Of a stretch of DNA of 46,050 nucleotides, positions 16,286-25,266 are shown piece by piece. This stretch comes from Aeromonadales bacterium. GTDB lineage: Bacteria > Pseudomonadota > Gammaproteobacteria > Enterobacterales > Succinivibrionaceae. The stretch covers positions 1-46,050 of the forward strand of contig JAAYPN010000084.1 in the NCBI GenBank assembly GCA_012519775.1. The letters are read 5' to 3'. A program made the translations under genes and the position numbers. Every line of letters begins with the position of its first letter. Within the stretch, counting starts at the first letter, position 1. The notes below the pieces were generated by a model. That model worked only from the letters and a program-made list of their open reading frames with translations, was not told the origin of the DNA and did not search any database.

Positions 16286-17557
16286 TTAATTATTTAGTTT
16301 TTCTACAAGGAATTTACTTATTCTTTCAATAGAGTCTTTAACAAAAGCTGAATAACCTTCGTTCTCATGCACATACAAAGAAAAATCCTTGTAGTTGTTT
16401 TCAAGCAGAGTAATGTCATTTCCTGACACATAGGAATTTTTAATGGTACATACTAGTGTCGGGGTGGTACATCTATTGGAGTTTGACAGTATTCCCTGAT
16501 TCTTTAAAGAGAAGGCTTTAAAGCGCGGAATTAAAATTTCCCAATTGCTTGCATCAAGATTTAATCTGTTGCACAGAGAAGATCTTAAGCATAAAGGCAT
16601 AGAGTCTAGATAGTCTTTTTCAGTAAAGATGGAATGCACAAATGGAGTAATAGCAATAAGTGCTTTAACAAGATTTGGCTTCATTAAGCTTGCTCTAATA
16701 CAGGTAGTTGCAGCTAATGCTCTACCCATTAAGGCAATTTTTGTTGAATCGATACAATTTAAGGTTGAAAGATGCTCTAAGGCAGCTTCCACACCTAATG
16801 AAAAGTGGTCATCTAAATTAAGCTTGTCACATGCTCCTGTTCCTGGCATTTCAATCAGAAACATAGCAATATTGTTTGGCTTTAGATAATTTGTAAACAG
16901 TCTGAAATGGTCTTCAATGCTGTTCTCATAAGAGCAGGCTACCACAAGGCATGGATGCACTGATTCAGTATCAGGTAAATGAAGATAACCTGTAACCTTT
17001 TTACCGTCGACAGTAAATGTCTCTTCTTTAATAGGTACAAGATTTGGGTCAACCTCAAACATCTGCTTATAGCATTTTCTGCACAAAACGTCTGCTTCTA
17101 AAGCAAGTACATCTGATTTTAAATTTGGATAAGCCGCAATTCCAAAATAGCGGGCTGCCATTCTGAAGTTGTGAGATGCACATTGCATATCCCCCTTCTC
17201 CATTGCAGCACGCGCTTTGGTCACTCGTGACTGAGCAATTGTTGAAAACTCATAAATCCAGTGGCCAGGACCATATTCTTTTACAGTATCAAGGCACTTA
17301 GGTCTGCTTCTTTCATTTTTAGAAACACTGATTTTAGCTAGAGCTTCATCAATATCAAGCACATTACCGCCGCCTATTACCCAGTTGAAGCGGTGAATAG
17401 GTCTGTAATATGAAGGTGTAAAACCAAAGGCAGAATCTTCATAAGACAGCTTTGGCAGTTCTACTCCACTATTAGAAATCATGGAGGTTTCTTCATATTT
17501 AAACTTTGGCTTGAATAATTTTTCGCTAAGATTTTCAGATTGCATGTTGTTTTCCAA
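16286..17557 (-). CDS. frsA: FrsA-like alpha/beta-hydrolase-fold protein
   Basis: N-terminus NLSEKLFKPKFKYEETS and NWVIGGGNVLDIDEALAKI.. follow FrsA. frsA is also near proBA in Enterobacteria. Confidence 0.8.
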   Translation of the reverse strand: MENNMQSENLSEKLFKPKFKYEETSMISNSGVELPKLSYEDSAFGFTPSYYRPIHRFNWVIGGGNVLDIDEALAKISVSKNERSRPKCLDTVKEYGPGHWIYEFSTIAQSRVTKARAAMEKGDMQCASHNFRMAARYFGIAAYPNLKSDVLALEADVLCRKCYKQMFEVDPNLVPIKEETFTVDGKKVTGYLHLPDTESVHPCLVVACSYENSIEDHFRLFTNYLKPNNIAMFLIEMPGTGACDKLNLDDHFSLGVEAALEHLSTLNCIDSTKIALMGRALAATTCIRASLMKPNLVKALIAITPFVHSIFTEKDYLDSMPLCLRSSLCNRLNLDASNWEILIPRFKAFSLKNQGILSNSNRCTTPTLVCTIKNSYVSGNDITLLENNYKDFSLYVHENEGYSAFVKDSIERISKFLVEKLNN

Positions 17558-17783
17558 ATATGTTACTCACTTAATTTTACTAGAAAATTTATGATATTTC
17601 ACAAGAATTACTTAATCTTTAATTGTCAAGCTATCACTTAAGACAAAGTCAGTTTTTACAGAATCAGAAATTAAAAATTTACAAATTCTAAAAACCTGAT
17701 TTTTTGTAAATTCCGCAAGAATTCTATGTAAAAATTCGAGTTTCCCACAGGTTGGAAACATGAGTTTTCCACAGTTTACACCC

Positions 17784-17805
17784 TAATCCACCGAGTTTCC
17801 CACAG
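17784..17805 (+). repeat. Copy 1 of 22-bp perfect direct repeat TAATCCACCGAGTTTCCCACAG
   Basis: Identical 22-mer at 18667-18688. Confidence 0.95.
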
Positions 17806-18125
17806 TTACAGATGAATTGTAGTGGATAATTTTAAAATTCAAAAACCAGAATAAATTTGCCCAAAAATAGTCCATAAAAACGTATTCAAAATTATTTGTA
17901 AAAAAATTTCTTGCAATTTTGAACTAGAGATTAACTTACTGAAAAAAAGTAATATTTTTAATAGAATTTTCATTTGTTACTTTATACCAGCAAAGACATA
18001 TGATTTTTCATGTCAATAATTATATTTTTTAGACGTACAAAGAGTAATTAAGATAGATGAGGAAAATTCTCAAATAAAGCTCAAAAAATAAGGCCTCAGA
18101 GAGAAATTTGATGATTTACAAAAAA

Positions 18126-18147
18126 GTTTCCCACAGCTGTGGAAAAC
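18126..18147. repeat. Near-perfect inverted repeat GTTTCCCACAGCTGTGGAAAAC
   Basis: Two head-to-head DnaA-box-like sequences, one mismatch from a perfect palindrome; a third TTTTCCACA follows at 18149. Confidence 0.9.
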
Positions 18148-18666
18148 TTTTTCCACATAAAAATACCAAAAAATATTTTTCAATTTTGCTTTTTTAAAAG
18201 GGTATACCTTATTGTTTTTACTAATTTTTTTATTATTTTTTAGAATAATAAATTAGCTGAATTTTGAAGCAAGTAGTAGTTTGAAGAACAGAGACTTTTT
18301 TATTTCCCACCAGGTTTCCCACAGGTTGTAGATAACTAAAAAATAGACAGTTAAATTTTCAGTTTTGAAACTCATGTATTCTTATGTATTGTTTATTATT
18401 CATTATTCAATATAAATATCTGTTATTACATAGTTTTATTTTGTATTTCGATGAATTTTCTATTTAATAAAAGTAACATTTCAGTTTGAATTCAAGCCTT
18501 CATATGCGATTTTTCCTACAGTGCAGTTAAAAAATTCACTGATTGTTGATAAACATATATAACTTATTGAATATTAGATACTTTTTTAATTGCAAGAACT
18601 TTAATAAAATAGTTTCCCACAGGTCTTAAATGGCTAATGAATCAAAATTACCCACAGATACCACCA

Positions 18667-18688
18667 TAATCCACCGAGTTTCCCACAG
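18667..18688 (+). repeat. Copy 2 of 22-bp perfect direct repeat TAATCCACCGAGTTTCCCACAG
   Basis: Identical 22-mer at 17784-17805. Confidence 0.95.
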
Positions 18689-18884
18689 GTTGTGGAATTT
18701 TGTGCAAAACAAAGAAATTTGCGTTTTTTCTTTCATTTCTGAAATTATGTAATGTTACTTTTTGTGGATTACGAATGTGAATTGATGATGATTTAAAGTA
18801 GAAAATGAAAATTTTACTTTTACTATCTAATGCTTCAAGGCACTTAATATTTGATAAAATGACTAAAATTTTTAAGGACTTACT

Positions 18885-20441
18885 GTGGCTAAATCAAAAC
18901 TATTAAGATCGGGCGCCATAACAGCTAGCGCTACTTTTATGTCCAGAATTCTGGGCATGCTCCGTGACATTGCAATTGCATCTTTATTAGGTGCCTCACT
19001 ATCAGCTGACGTATATTTCTTTGCTAACCGCATTCCTAATTTCTTTAGACGACTTTTTGCTGAAGGAGCATTCTCTCAGGCATTCGTTCCTGTAATGAGT
19101 AAAACCAAAGAAGAAGGAGATAAAGAAAAGCTAAAGGTTCTCTTAAATAAGACAGCTGGTACCCTAGGTGCCATTGTGCTTATGGTAACGATAATAGGTA
19201 TGTTAGCCTCCCCTGTACTTACAGCATTCTTTGGCTGGGGTTGGTATCAGGCATATCTTGATAATACTAAAGATGCCATTAAGTTCACTCAGGCAAGTTA
19301 TCTTTTAAAAATTACTTTCCCGTACCTTTTCTTTATTACCTTAACTGCACTTACATCGGCAATATTAAACGTATATGGAAAGTTTTTAATTCCTGCCATT
19401 ACTCCATGCGTTTTAAATGTGGTGTTAATTGTCACCTGTTATTTTGTAGCACCATACTTTAATGATCCTAACGTGGTTTTAGCCTATGGTATGGTTGTAG
19501 GTGGTGTATTGCAGCTTATTCTGCAGATACCTTTTATTCTCAGATTAAAACTTTTTATTATTCCAAAATTCGACTGGAATCATGAGGGTGTCAAAAAGAT
19601 TAGAAAACTTATGCTGCCTGCTATTGTGGGAATTTCAGCAAGTCAGATTAACCTTATCGTAAATACAGCATTAGCATCATTTTTAGCAACAGGTGCCATC
19701 TCTTATTTATATTACTCAGACAGATTATTAGAGTTTCCTATCGGTATCTTTGCTGTGGCTATTTCCACTGTGATTTTACCATCCCTCTCAAAGATTGATA
19801 TTTCAAAAGATCATGACAAATATGTAAACACCCTAGACTGGGGTGTAAGATTGGTACTGTTTTTAGGTATCCCATCTATGTGCGGTATGATTGCGCTAAA
19901 AGAGCCTATCTTGCGTACAATCTTTATGAGAGGCGCCTTTACAGCCGATCATGTAGCTTTATCATCAGCATCGTTACTAGCATCTGTATCAGGCCTATGC
20001 GCTATTATGCTAGTTCGCGTTATCGTACAGGGATTTGCTGCAATTGAGGATACAAAAACCCCTGTAAGATGCTCTGTAGTTGCAATCTTTGCAAATATTA
20101 TCTTCAATCTGATTCTGGTATGGCCTTTAGACTATATTGGTCTTGCTCTTTCAACAGCATTAGCTGCCTACGTGAACATTTCACTGTTACTTTATTTTCT
20201 GCATAAAAGAAAGATTTATAACCTCTCAAAGGCAACCATTCTCTTTACCTTAAAGGCACTTATTGCAGGTACTGCTATGGCAGTATCTTTAAAGTATATT
20301 GCTCCAGGTTTTGATAAATGGGTGGAAATGACTACTCTTGAGGCGGTATTACACTTAACTTTATACGTAGGGGTAGGCGGATTTATCTATATTCTTGTAT
20401 GTGCTCTTTTAGGAATTAAGCTTAAAACCTTAAGAATGTAG
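18885..20441 (+). CDS. murJ: Lipid II flippase MurJ (GTG start)
   Basis: SATFMSRILGMLRDIAIASLLGAS..ADVYFFANRIPNFFRRLFAEGAFSQAFVPV is a MurJ N-terminal signature. Confidence 0.95.
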   Translation: MAKSKLLRSGAITASATFMSRILGMLRDIAIASLLGASLSADVYFFANRIPNFFRRLFAEGAFSQAFVPVMSKTKEEGDKEKLKVLLNKTAGTLGAIVLMVTIIGMLASPVLTAFFGWGWYQAYLDNTKDAIKFTQASYLLKITFPYLFFITLTALTSAILNVYGKFLIPAITPCVLNVVLIVTCYFVAPYFNDPNVVLAYGMVVGGVLQLILQIPFILRLKLFIIPKFDWNHEGVKKIRKLMLPAIVGISASQINLIVNTALASFLATGAISYLYYSDRLLEFPIGIFAVAISTVILPSLSKIDISKDHDKYVNTLDWGVRLVLFLGIPSMCGMIALKEPILRTIFMRGAFTADHVALSSASLLASVSGLCAIMLVRVIVQGFAAIEDTKTPVRCSVVAIFANIIFNLILVWPLDYIGLALSTALAAYVNISLLLYFLHKRKIYNLSKATILFTLKALIAGTAMAVSLKYIAPGFDKWVEMTTLEAVLHLTLYVGVGGFIYILVCALLGIKLKTLRM

Positions 20442-22688: not shown

Positions 22689-23441
22689 TTATTTATAAGC
22701 GATAACGTAATGCCACTTCCAGGTAAGCCTAACGCCTTTATCGCTTTTATAGTTCTGCTCATACTTTTCAATAAACTCGTTCAATTGAGTTTTTGTCCAG
22801 ATCCTTCCAGATAACCCGCTTACACCAGTACGCTTAAAGCTTCTTAACATGCTTTTCACGTCTTTATAGTAAAGTACGATTTCTCGTGGCATTAGAGTGT
22901 AACAAGGGAAAATTCCTGAGAGCATTTTCTGAAGAGTTTTCTGATATTTATAGGCAAGAGATAAACCCGAGCAGTGTTTAATCTCGGCAAAATTTCCCTC
23001 AGAAAAAATTGAAAAGGCAAGACAGCCATTGTCTTTTAGGTAGTATTTGAAATCTTTTAAAACTTTTTCAAGATCACTCATCCACTGCAGGCAGGCATTA
23101 GATATGATTAAATCGAATCGGTCCTGCTCTTTAAAATCAAGCGACTCGGCATCTTTTATAAGATAGGATACGCGCTCACTTTCTGGTACTGCGTTTTTGC
23201 AGTGCAATAGCATAGACTTGCTAATGTCATTTAGTATAAGGTGTTTAAAATCAAGATTATCAGCAATCATTTTTGATAAAAGACCTGTACCGCAGCCGAT
23301 CTCTAAGATTTCATCATATGGCTGAGATTCAACTCTATCAATAAGCTCACGTGCCATGACCGCCTGGACATTGGCATCATTCTGATAACTATCAGAGGCT
23401 CTTGAAAAACGCTGCTCTACTAAATTCTTGTTAACTAACAT
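22689..23441 (-). CDS. bioC: Malonyl-ACP O-methyltransferase
   Basis: Methyltransferase motif ILEIGCGTGLLSKMIAD, LIISNACLQWMSDL; next to bioG and bioF. Confidence 0.9.
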   Translation of the reverse strand: MLVNKNLVEQRFSRASDSYQNDANVQAVMARELIDRVESQPYDEILEIGCGTGLLSKMIADNLDFKHLILNDISKSMLLHCKNAVPESERVSYLIKDAESLDFKEQDRFDLIISNACLQWMSDLEKVLKDFKYYLKDNGCLAFSIFSEGNFAEIKHCSGLSLAYKYQKTLQKMLSGIFPCYTLMPREIVLYYKDVKSMLRSFKRTGVSGLSGRIWTKTQLNEFIEKYEQNYKSDKGVRLTWKWHYVIAYK

Positions 23442-24100
23442 TATGACTCTAAAACTTTTTTTATTATATCAAGGCTATAATGAGCAATATCTTCACATAC
23501 AACAGATGTATCTGTCTTATCCCATGCTGATAGCTGATTTTTAGGAGTGATAATTTTATCTTTATTACCGACAATTGCCAAATCATAATTGAAATTTTCA
23601 ACAGATGGAATGATGGCAAGCTCTTTAATATAGTTTAATTCAGCCTTTAATGAATCAATGCTTCTTTTAGGTTTTGTATTGACATACTCCTGATACAGGG
23701 CTGCATTTAAACACATTCTACGAATGAATTTTGCGTAGGTATCCTCATTTAAGGCATCAATTGTAGCCTGCCACAAAACCATAGGAATACCGTAGTTATC
23801 ATCAATGCCGGCTATTGTACCGTTGATGGCTGTAGCTTTTGTAACCTTTGATAATAAAGATGCCTTATTAAGGACTTTAGGTGCAATCATTACACCCATT
23901 GACCAGGCAACAAGCTCAATTGCCTTGTAATTTTTCAGCTTTTCGCAGTCAAAATCTAATGACTCATAGTCATAAACAATAGCATAATCATCCTTTGTGC
24001 ACTCTTTTGTAACCTCAAAGGGAGTTGCATCCTGTCCATAACCTAAAAAGAACAGCTTTAGAGAGTCAGTGCCGTTTTGCTTTAAAAATTCAATTTTCAT
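23441..24100 (-). CDS. bioG: Pimeloyl-ACP methyl ester carboxylesterase BioG (DUF452)
   Basis: MKIEFLKQNGTDSLKLFFLGYGQDATPF.., VAWSMGVMIA (nucleophile elbow); position between bioF and bioC. Confidence 0.85.
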   Translation of the reverse strand: MKIEFLKQNGTDSLKLFFLGYGQDATPFEVTKECTKDDYAIVYDYESLDFDCEKLKNYKAIELVAWSMGVMIAPKVLNKASLLSKVTKATAINGTIAGIDDNYGIPMVLWQATIDALNEDTYAKFIRRMCLNAALYQEYVNTKPKRSIDSLKAELNYIKELAIIPSVENFNYDLAIVGNKDKIITPKNQLSAWDKTDTSVVCEDIAHYSLDIIKKVLES

Positions 24101-24102
24101 AA

Positions 24103-25266
24103 TCAGATTCTGAATGCTTTAATGGTTTTTGCTAGTTTCTCGACTTCACTATCTGTAAGTGATGCAGTAAGTGATAAGCGTAATCTTGCCTTGCCTAAAG
24201 GAACTGTAGGATGACGGATTGGCATTGCATAAAAACCGTTATCTCTAAAGAAGGCAAATGCCTTAATTGCCTTGTCATTATCGCCTGTAATAAAAGGAAT
24301 GATTTGAGATGATGACACGTTCTCATAACCGCACTCAATTAAGGTCTCATGAATAAAGTCACTGATTCTATACAATCTGTCTCTTAGTGCCTGTGCCTTT
24401 TGCATGTACTTTAACATAAAGGCATTGTGAGCAAAGGTAAATGGAGATAGCGCAGTTGAGAAGATTAAAGAGCGAGTGGTATTTATAAAGTAGTCATGAG
24501 CTACTTTATTTGATAAAAGACAGGCTCCCTGTGAGCCTAAACCTTTACCGAAGGTTGTCAGGATAAAATCAATGTCTGATAGCTTGTTCTCACTTGCGCA
24601 AAAACCTGCTCCATTATCGTTATAAAGACAGAATGAATGAGCCTCATCAACATAGATGTAAACATTGTCATAGCGCTTTTTTAAGGCAACTAAAGCATTT
24701 AAATCGCACTTGTCGCCATCCATACTAAAGACAGCTTCTGTAACAATGATAATAGAATCATATTTCTCATGATTTGCCTCAATAAGTCTTTGCAGGTGTT
24801 CATAATCATTATGAGCATAGCGAAGACATTTACCCTCAGCGCCCTTAATACCGTTGATAATTGATGCATGGGCAAGCTTATCTGCAATAATAAGATTCTC
24901 TTTAGTTGCAAGAGCTCCAATTAAACCGCTGTTAGCTGCAAAGCCGCTTGTAAAGAAAAGAGCTGATTTATTAAATAGTGACTCCATTACCTCTGTCGCC
25001 TCAAGGTAACTCTCATGAGCACCTGTAAGAAGTGGCGAACCAGATGAGCTTTGCCTGATATAAGGACCTGATACGCTATCTAAAAATTCCTTTGCAAGAT
25101 TAAGATTAGATGCAAGACCTAAATAATCATTTGAAGATAGGTTGATGTAATCTTTGTTATCTACGATAATTTTACTTTGATGCTGACTTTTAGCGACGAT
25201 AGTGCGCAGTTTTCCTGCCTTTAGATTCTCGTCTAAAAGCTGCTGCATGTTCATATATAAACTCAA
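24103..25266 (-). CDS. bioF: 8-amino-7-oxononanoate synthase
   Basis: INLSSNDYLGLASN, VDEAHSFCLYNDNGAGF, PLP lysine context TTFGKGLGSQGACLL. Confidence 0.93.
   Translation of the reverse strand: MSLYMNMQQLLDENLKAGKLRTIVAKSQHQSKIIVDNKDYINLSSNDYLGLASNLNLAKEFLDSVSGPYIRQSSSGSPLLTGAHESYLEATEVMESLFNKSALFFTSGFAANSGLIGALATKENLIIADKLAHASIINGIKGAEGKCLRYAHNDYEHLQRLIEANHEKYDSIIIVTEAVFSMDGDKCDLNALVALKKRYDNVYIYVDEAHSFCLYNDNGAGFCASENKLSDIDFILTTFGKGLGSQGACLLSNKVAHDYFINTTRSLIFSTALSPFTFAHNAFMLKYMQKAQALRDRLYRISDFIHETLIECGYENVSSSQIIPFITGDNDKAIKAFAFFRDNGFYAMPIRHPTVPLGKARLRLSLTASLTDSEVEKLAKTIKAFRI

Follow-up and report, generated by a model that had tools for sequence, protein, structure and literature searches.

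The window, meaning the whole stretch of 46,050 nt that was analysed, corresponds to contig C157 of a genome (G000) of 1.72 Mb in 159 contigs. The host is taken to belong to the Succinivibrionaceae, near Anaerobiospirillum, as the one relative identified in the named collection was an uncultured member of that genus. The gap between frsA and murJ in this window (Table 1) contained no long coding frame and had a GC content of 25.9%, compared to 38–39% on both flanks. The exact boxes counted in it were six copies of TTTCCCACA, three of TTTTCCACA and one each of TTACCCACA and TTTTGCACA. The preliminary description of this DNA had reported a cluster of DnaA-box-like repeats here and the cluster proved to be real; 10 exact matches to TTWYCCACA were found, compared to a mean of 0.05 and a maximum of 1 when the gap was shuffled 300 times with its dinucleotides preserved. 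The six copies of TTTCCCACA compared with 0.01 in the shuffles and, when up to one mismatch was allowed, TTTYCCACA occurred 14 times (shuffle mean 1.34, maximum 5). Exact TTWTNCACA was present four times (0.44 in the shuffles), and most of the boxes in the gap had C at position 4. Six of the eight exact copies of TTTCCCACAG in the whole genome fell within the gap, an enrichment over the genome as a whole. The repeats had been described as lying on both strands; both strands were indeed used, but 12 of 15 boxes were directed towards murJ. The absence of GATC sites was confirmed (none in the gap versus 157 in the window). An Rfam scan gave just two sub-threshold matches, both over the palindrome of the core, and these were read as chance.

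Table 1. Coordinates of the array, its components and its flanking genes in the window
Feature	Position	Strand	Remarks
frsA (esterase FrsA-like), left flank	16286–17557	-	Sole NCBIfam match (290 bits); curated cut-off of 477 not reached
Whole element: DnaA-box array between frsA and murJ	17558–18884	.	1,327 bp
Module 1: boxes at 17741 (TTTCCCACA), 17765 (TTTTCCACA) and 17796 (TTTCCCACA)	17741–17804	+	Last two boxes spaced 22 bp, conserved
Core: TTTCCCACA (+), 2 bp, TTTTCCACA (-), 2 bp, TTTTCCACA (+)	18127–18157	.	
Very AT-rich stretch, 12% GC	18209–18268	.	Just downstream of core
Module 3: TTTCCCACC and TTTCCCACA, head-to-tail, 3 bp between	18303–18323	+	
IHF-like site ATTCAATAAGTTA, one mismatch to WATCAANNNNTTR	18560–18572	-	53 bp before module 4
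Module 4: boxes at 18613 (TTTCCCACA), 18648 (TTACCCACA) and 18679 (TTTCCCACA), weak boxes interspersed	18613–18687	+	Spacing of 26 and 22 bp conserved
murJ, right flank, the array's constant neighbour	18885–20441	+	

In total about 15 boxes were spread over about 950 bp, and the spacing within modules recurred across genomes: 22 bp at the end of module 1, 2 + 2 bp in the core, 3 bp in module 3 and 26 bp followed by 22 bp in module 4. The head-to-head pair of the core (18127–18146) formed a palindrome, and the core motif was retained in six genomes when up to three mismatches were allowed. AT-rich runs had been noted previously at about 18160–18260; such runs are present, with their minimum at about the position given in Table 1. 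The 60 bp of lowest GC content lay at about +24 to +62 bp past the core in several genomes, including G005 and G008, where the upstream region as a whole had 55% and 46% GC respectively; in other genomes the GC minimum fell at a different place within the gap, or no core could be recognised. Of 19 genomes, 15 had an IHF-like site with no more than one mismatch at a distance of 51–54 bp ahead of module 4. The site fell inside one 3-bp window in 14 of the 19, against a mean of 0.24 over all windows, a figure that is not a probability as the genomes are related, although G045 and the CALXNP contig come from other genera. The box map of the CALXNP contig was the same as that of G038.

The array was found 5′ of murJ in most genomes of the same genus (g1) and in G045, G030, G038 and G034, and was weak upstream of murJ in G033, G036 and G037. 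The conservation check proposed in the preliminary description showed that position and spacing were kept in g1 and in other genera. No murJ array was seen in the examined genomes of g2, g7, g9, g11, g12 and g13, nor in G040 (g8) or G029 (g3), some of the upstream stretches being short (G044 480 bp, G048 796 bp). In G005 and G011 a further gene separated frsA from murJ or lay upstream of murJ. In the 1.35 Mb sampled from G002, the densest box site was the murJ array, with 18 boxes per 1.3 kb (up to one mismatch), followed by the mnmG-linked oriC with seven. Our literature search revealed nothing relevant on a murJ/mviN-linked DnaA-box locus, on TTTCCCACA boxes or on the oriC of Succinivibrionaceae.

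Comparison of the arrays with the DnaA proteins of the same genomes revealed that position 4 of the box varied with the residue aligned to H439 of E. coli DnaA. Genomes whose arrays consisted mainly of TTTCCCACA encoded Glu in this column, with Asp in G005 and Gln in G018, whereas the genomes with TTTTCCACA arrays encoded Thr (G006), Ala (G013) or Ser (G015). G007 encoded Glu and had a mixed array, with two copies of TTTCCCACA versus three boxes with T at position 4; G011, which has no murJ array, encoded Thr. With all genomes included, only columns 352 and 439 of the aligned region (E. coli 130–466, domains III–IV) fully separated the two box types. Of these only 439 lies in the recognition helix, and residues 438–439 in helix 5 of E. 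coli DnaA appear in a published list of base contacts (PMC5043019); a second candidate for covariation with box type is column 352. In a tree built on DnaA domain III, with domain IV left out, the T-type arose at least twice, in G006 beside G000 and in G013 with G015 (both branches are starred). The covariation sample comprises three T-type genomes in two lineages, and two switches are few. The mnmG-linked oriC showed a weaker pattern: both forms were present in TTTCCCACA genomes, only TTTTCCACA in G006 and G013, and one of each in G015. Mutation pressure towards AT was rejected as the cause of TTTTCCACA because the very AT-rich gaps of G004 (24% GC) and CALXNP (18% GC) retain TTTCCCACA.

In the reading proposed here, box position 4 tracks DnaA, with Glu, Asp or Gln at 439 going with TTTCCCACA and Thr, Ala or Ser with TTTTCCACA. 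Covariation with residue 439 in two independent lineages supports the suggestion that a shifted box preference reflects co-evolution of DnaA domain IV. A similar association is found in Epsilonproteobacteria, where alteration of the box core to TTCAC has been tied to changes in helix 5 (PMC5043019). In both cases the box variant goes with a change in helix 5 of DnaA; the Epsilonproteobacterial box has T at position 5, whereas in the array it is position 4 that is C or T, following residue 439. We judge it about as likely as not that this is a natural rewiring of DnaA specificity, in which residue 439 determines whether position 4 is C or T and whole off-origin arrays of about 10 boxes have twice changed along with it.

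Unusual dnaA genes were also observed among the relatives. In five genomes of genus g2, dnaA was a single open frame of 1,217 to 2,894 codons (G021, L240, C2:147843 onward; G022, L241; G025, L243; G027, L244; G024, L246), which began with a domain-I-like segment, continued in a long Ala-rich linker of low complexity and ended with the AAA+ and DNA-binding domains. The frame examined in G020 (L245, 1,155 codons) lacked the domain-I-like segment and opened in sequence of low complexity, and that of G026 (L242) is known by its size alone (2,270 codons). Extra partial dnaA-like copies, besides the main dnaA, were found in G002 (C1:3232592–3233284 and 1915153–1915872) and, containing a TAA, in G016 (C95:1158–2183).

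The preliminary description had put forward the gap as a candidate replication origin, while correctly noting that mnmG and dnaA are not adjacent to it (both are on other contigs of this genome). Like the Gammaproteobacterial mnmG-linked oriC, the gap combines DnaA boxes, an IHF-like site and an AT-rich stretch; unlike it, the gap has no linkage to mnmG and no GATC. That it might be the origin, or a second, conditional one, is in keeping with the IHF-like site and head-to-tail arrays and with a 60-bp AT-rich stretch that several genomes keep at a nearly fixed place past the core, including some with upstream regions of 46–55% GC. The origin reading nevertheless fails: in G002 and G030, relatives from two genera in which the skew was followed in place of the 159-contig genome, a long distance separates the array from the GC-skew minimum. 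In the complete, same-genus genome G002 (3,468,545 bp; 60 stretches of 20 kb sampled), the skew was mostly negative between ~0.23 and 1.93 Mb, and from ~1.95 Mb through to ~0.19 Mb it was mostly positive. The turn at 1.93–1.96 Mb is the site of mnmG (1,944,519–1,946,363 bp), with a canonical oriC, and dnaA (1,958,199 bp). The murJ array of G002, at 3.083 Mb, was inside a mostly one-signed skew arm, 1.14 Mb from the mnmG-linked oriC and about two thirds down the arm. On a 1.3-Mb contig of G030, from another genus, the array was at 740 kb in a nearly monotone arm and the minimum was near dnaA at 1.15 Mb. The window itself showed no change in GC skew, and its own genome has an oriC-like site linked to mnmG on contig C141, with two copies each of TTTCCCACA and TTTTCCACA, the former being common to this site and the murJ array. 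The oriC reading was rejected on the GC skew of these relatives, and any originating role for the gap is highly improbable. A search of six genomes for the E. coli dif pattern found none. Upstream of mnmG in G002 (L136:4580–4845), a second box-bearing stretch, similar by eye to the first oriC stretch, lay ~1.1 kb farther upstream, giving the region the look of a partial duplication.

The other function proposed, a datA/DARS-like or titrating locus, is on its anatomy the best remaining reading: the gap would be a DnaA-control site of the datA/DARS type with a new architecture. E. coli datA is a non-coding, off-origin cluster of DnaA boxes that point the same way and are accompanied by an IHF site (PMC5742627), and the gap likewise holds a non-coding cluster off the origin with an IHF-like site and boxes mostly in one direction, yet also has one head-to-head pair. 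The minimum datA is 183 bp with three essential boxes near oriC, whereas the gap has a far longer array in another gene context, with the head-to-head core in addition. The location in G002 is not near oriC and, for a titration site, is less suitable than that of datA. E. coli DARS has a head-to-head box pair, and DARS2 an IHF site and head-to-tail low-affinity boxes (PMC8682772). The gap shares the head-to-head pair but does not adjoin mutH or bioD-uvrB, unlike E. coli DARS. The array fits the full definition of neither datA nor DARS. The E. coli chromosome carries a DARS1-like box triple between bioD and uvrB; in the window, bioC, a BioG-family gene and bioF were found in a row at 22689–25266, ~4 kb downstream of the array.

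A DARS-like site, in which the head-to-head core pair reactivates ADP-DnaA, is the main rival to titration or datA-like action. The core pair is placed as are boxes I and II of DARS, and DARS2 likewise joins a core with an IHF site and head-to-tail boxes. The printed sequences of E. coli DARS1 and DARS2, however, have a + - - core with spacings of 5 and 3 bp, whereas the core here is + - + with 2 and 2 bp, its third box being opposite in direction, and we consider a DARS-like site unlikely. Less probable still, at about the level of an origin, is that the gap controls the divergent frsA and murJ genes in response to DnaA and has no role in the DnaA cycle. Where found, the array is always 5′ of murJ between divergent genes, and terminator-like stems were in excess in the gap (3 versus a shuffled mean of 0.5); but promoter-like sites were at chance level, boxes in such number and at fixed spacing are more than a promoter requires, and the intervening genes of G005 and G011 speak against it. 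Titration or datA-like action is favoured over these alternatives, and we put at roughly two in three the probability that the gap binds DnaA away from the origin and withdraws it from oriC in one of these ways, with box position 4 following DnaA residue 439.

In this locus, DnaA would occupy about 10 strong boxes plus several weak ones, with filaments nucleated by the head-to-tail modules 1, 3 and 4 and their assembly aided by an IHF bend before module 4. The array would then draw DnaA off oriC by titration or by datA-like ATP hydrolysis, and the head-to-head core pair may have a DARS-like reactivating role. The sequences themselves show the clustering of the boxes, their kept position and spacing, the IHF-like site, the separation from the skew minimum in two genomes and the covariation with residue 439; occupancy by DnaA and IHF, and the effect on initiation, are what we infer from these arrangements. 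G002 encoded an IhfB-like protein (111 bits, cut-off 115), no IHF alpha was recognised in the sequence sampled, and the best NCBIfam match of a protein encoded by the genome of the window (L010:1480–2202, G000:C60) was Hda (186 bits, curated cut-off 194.8).

Detailed knowledge of off-origin DnaA-control loci comes from E. coli. The array is a candidate for such a locus of differing architecture, conserved in several genera of a different family. It also offers a comparative test of how DnaA may read box position 4, for which the proposed residue-to-base rule is directly testable.
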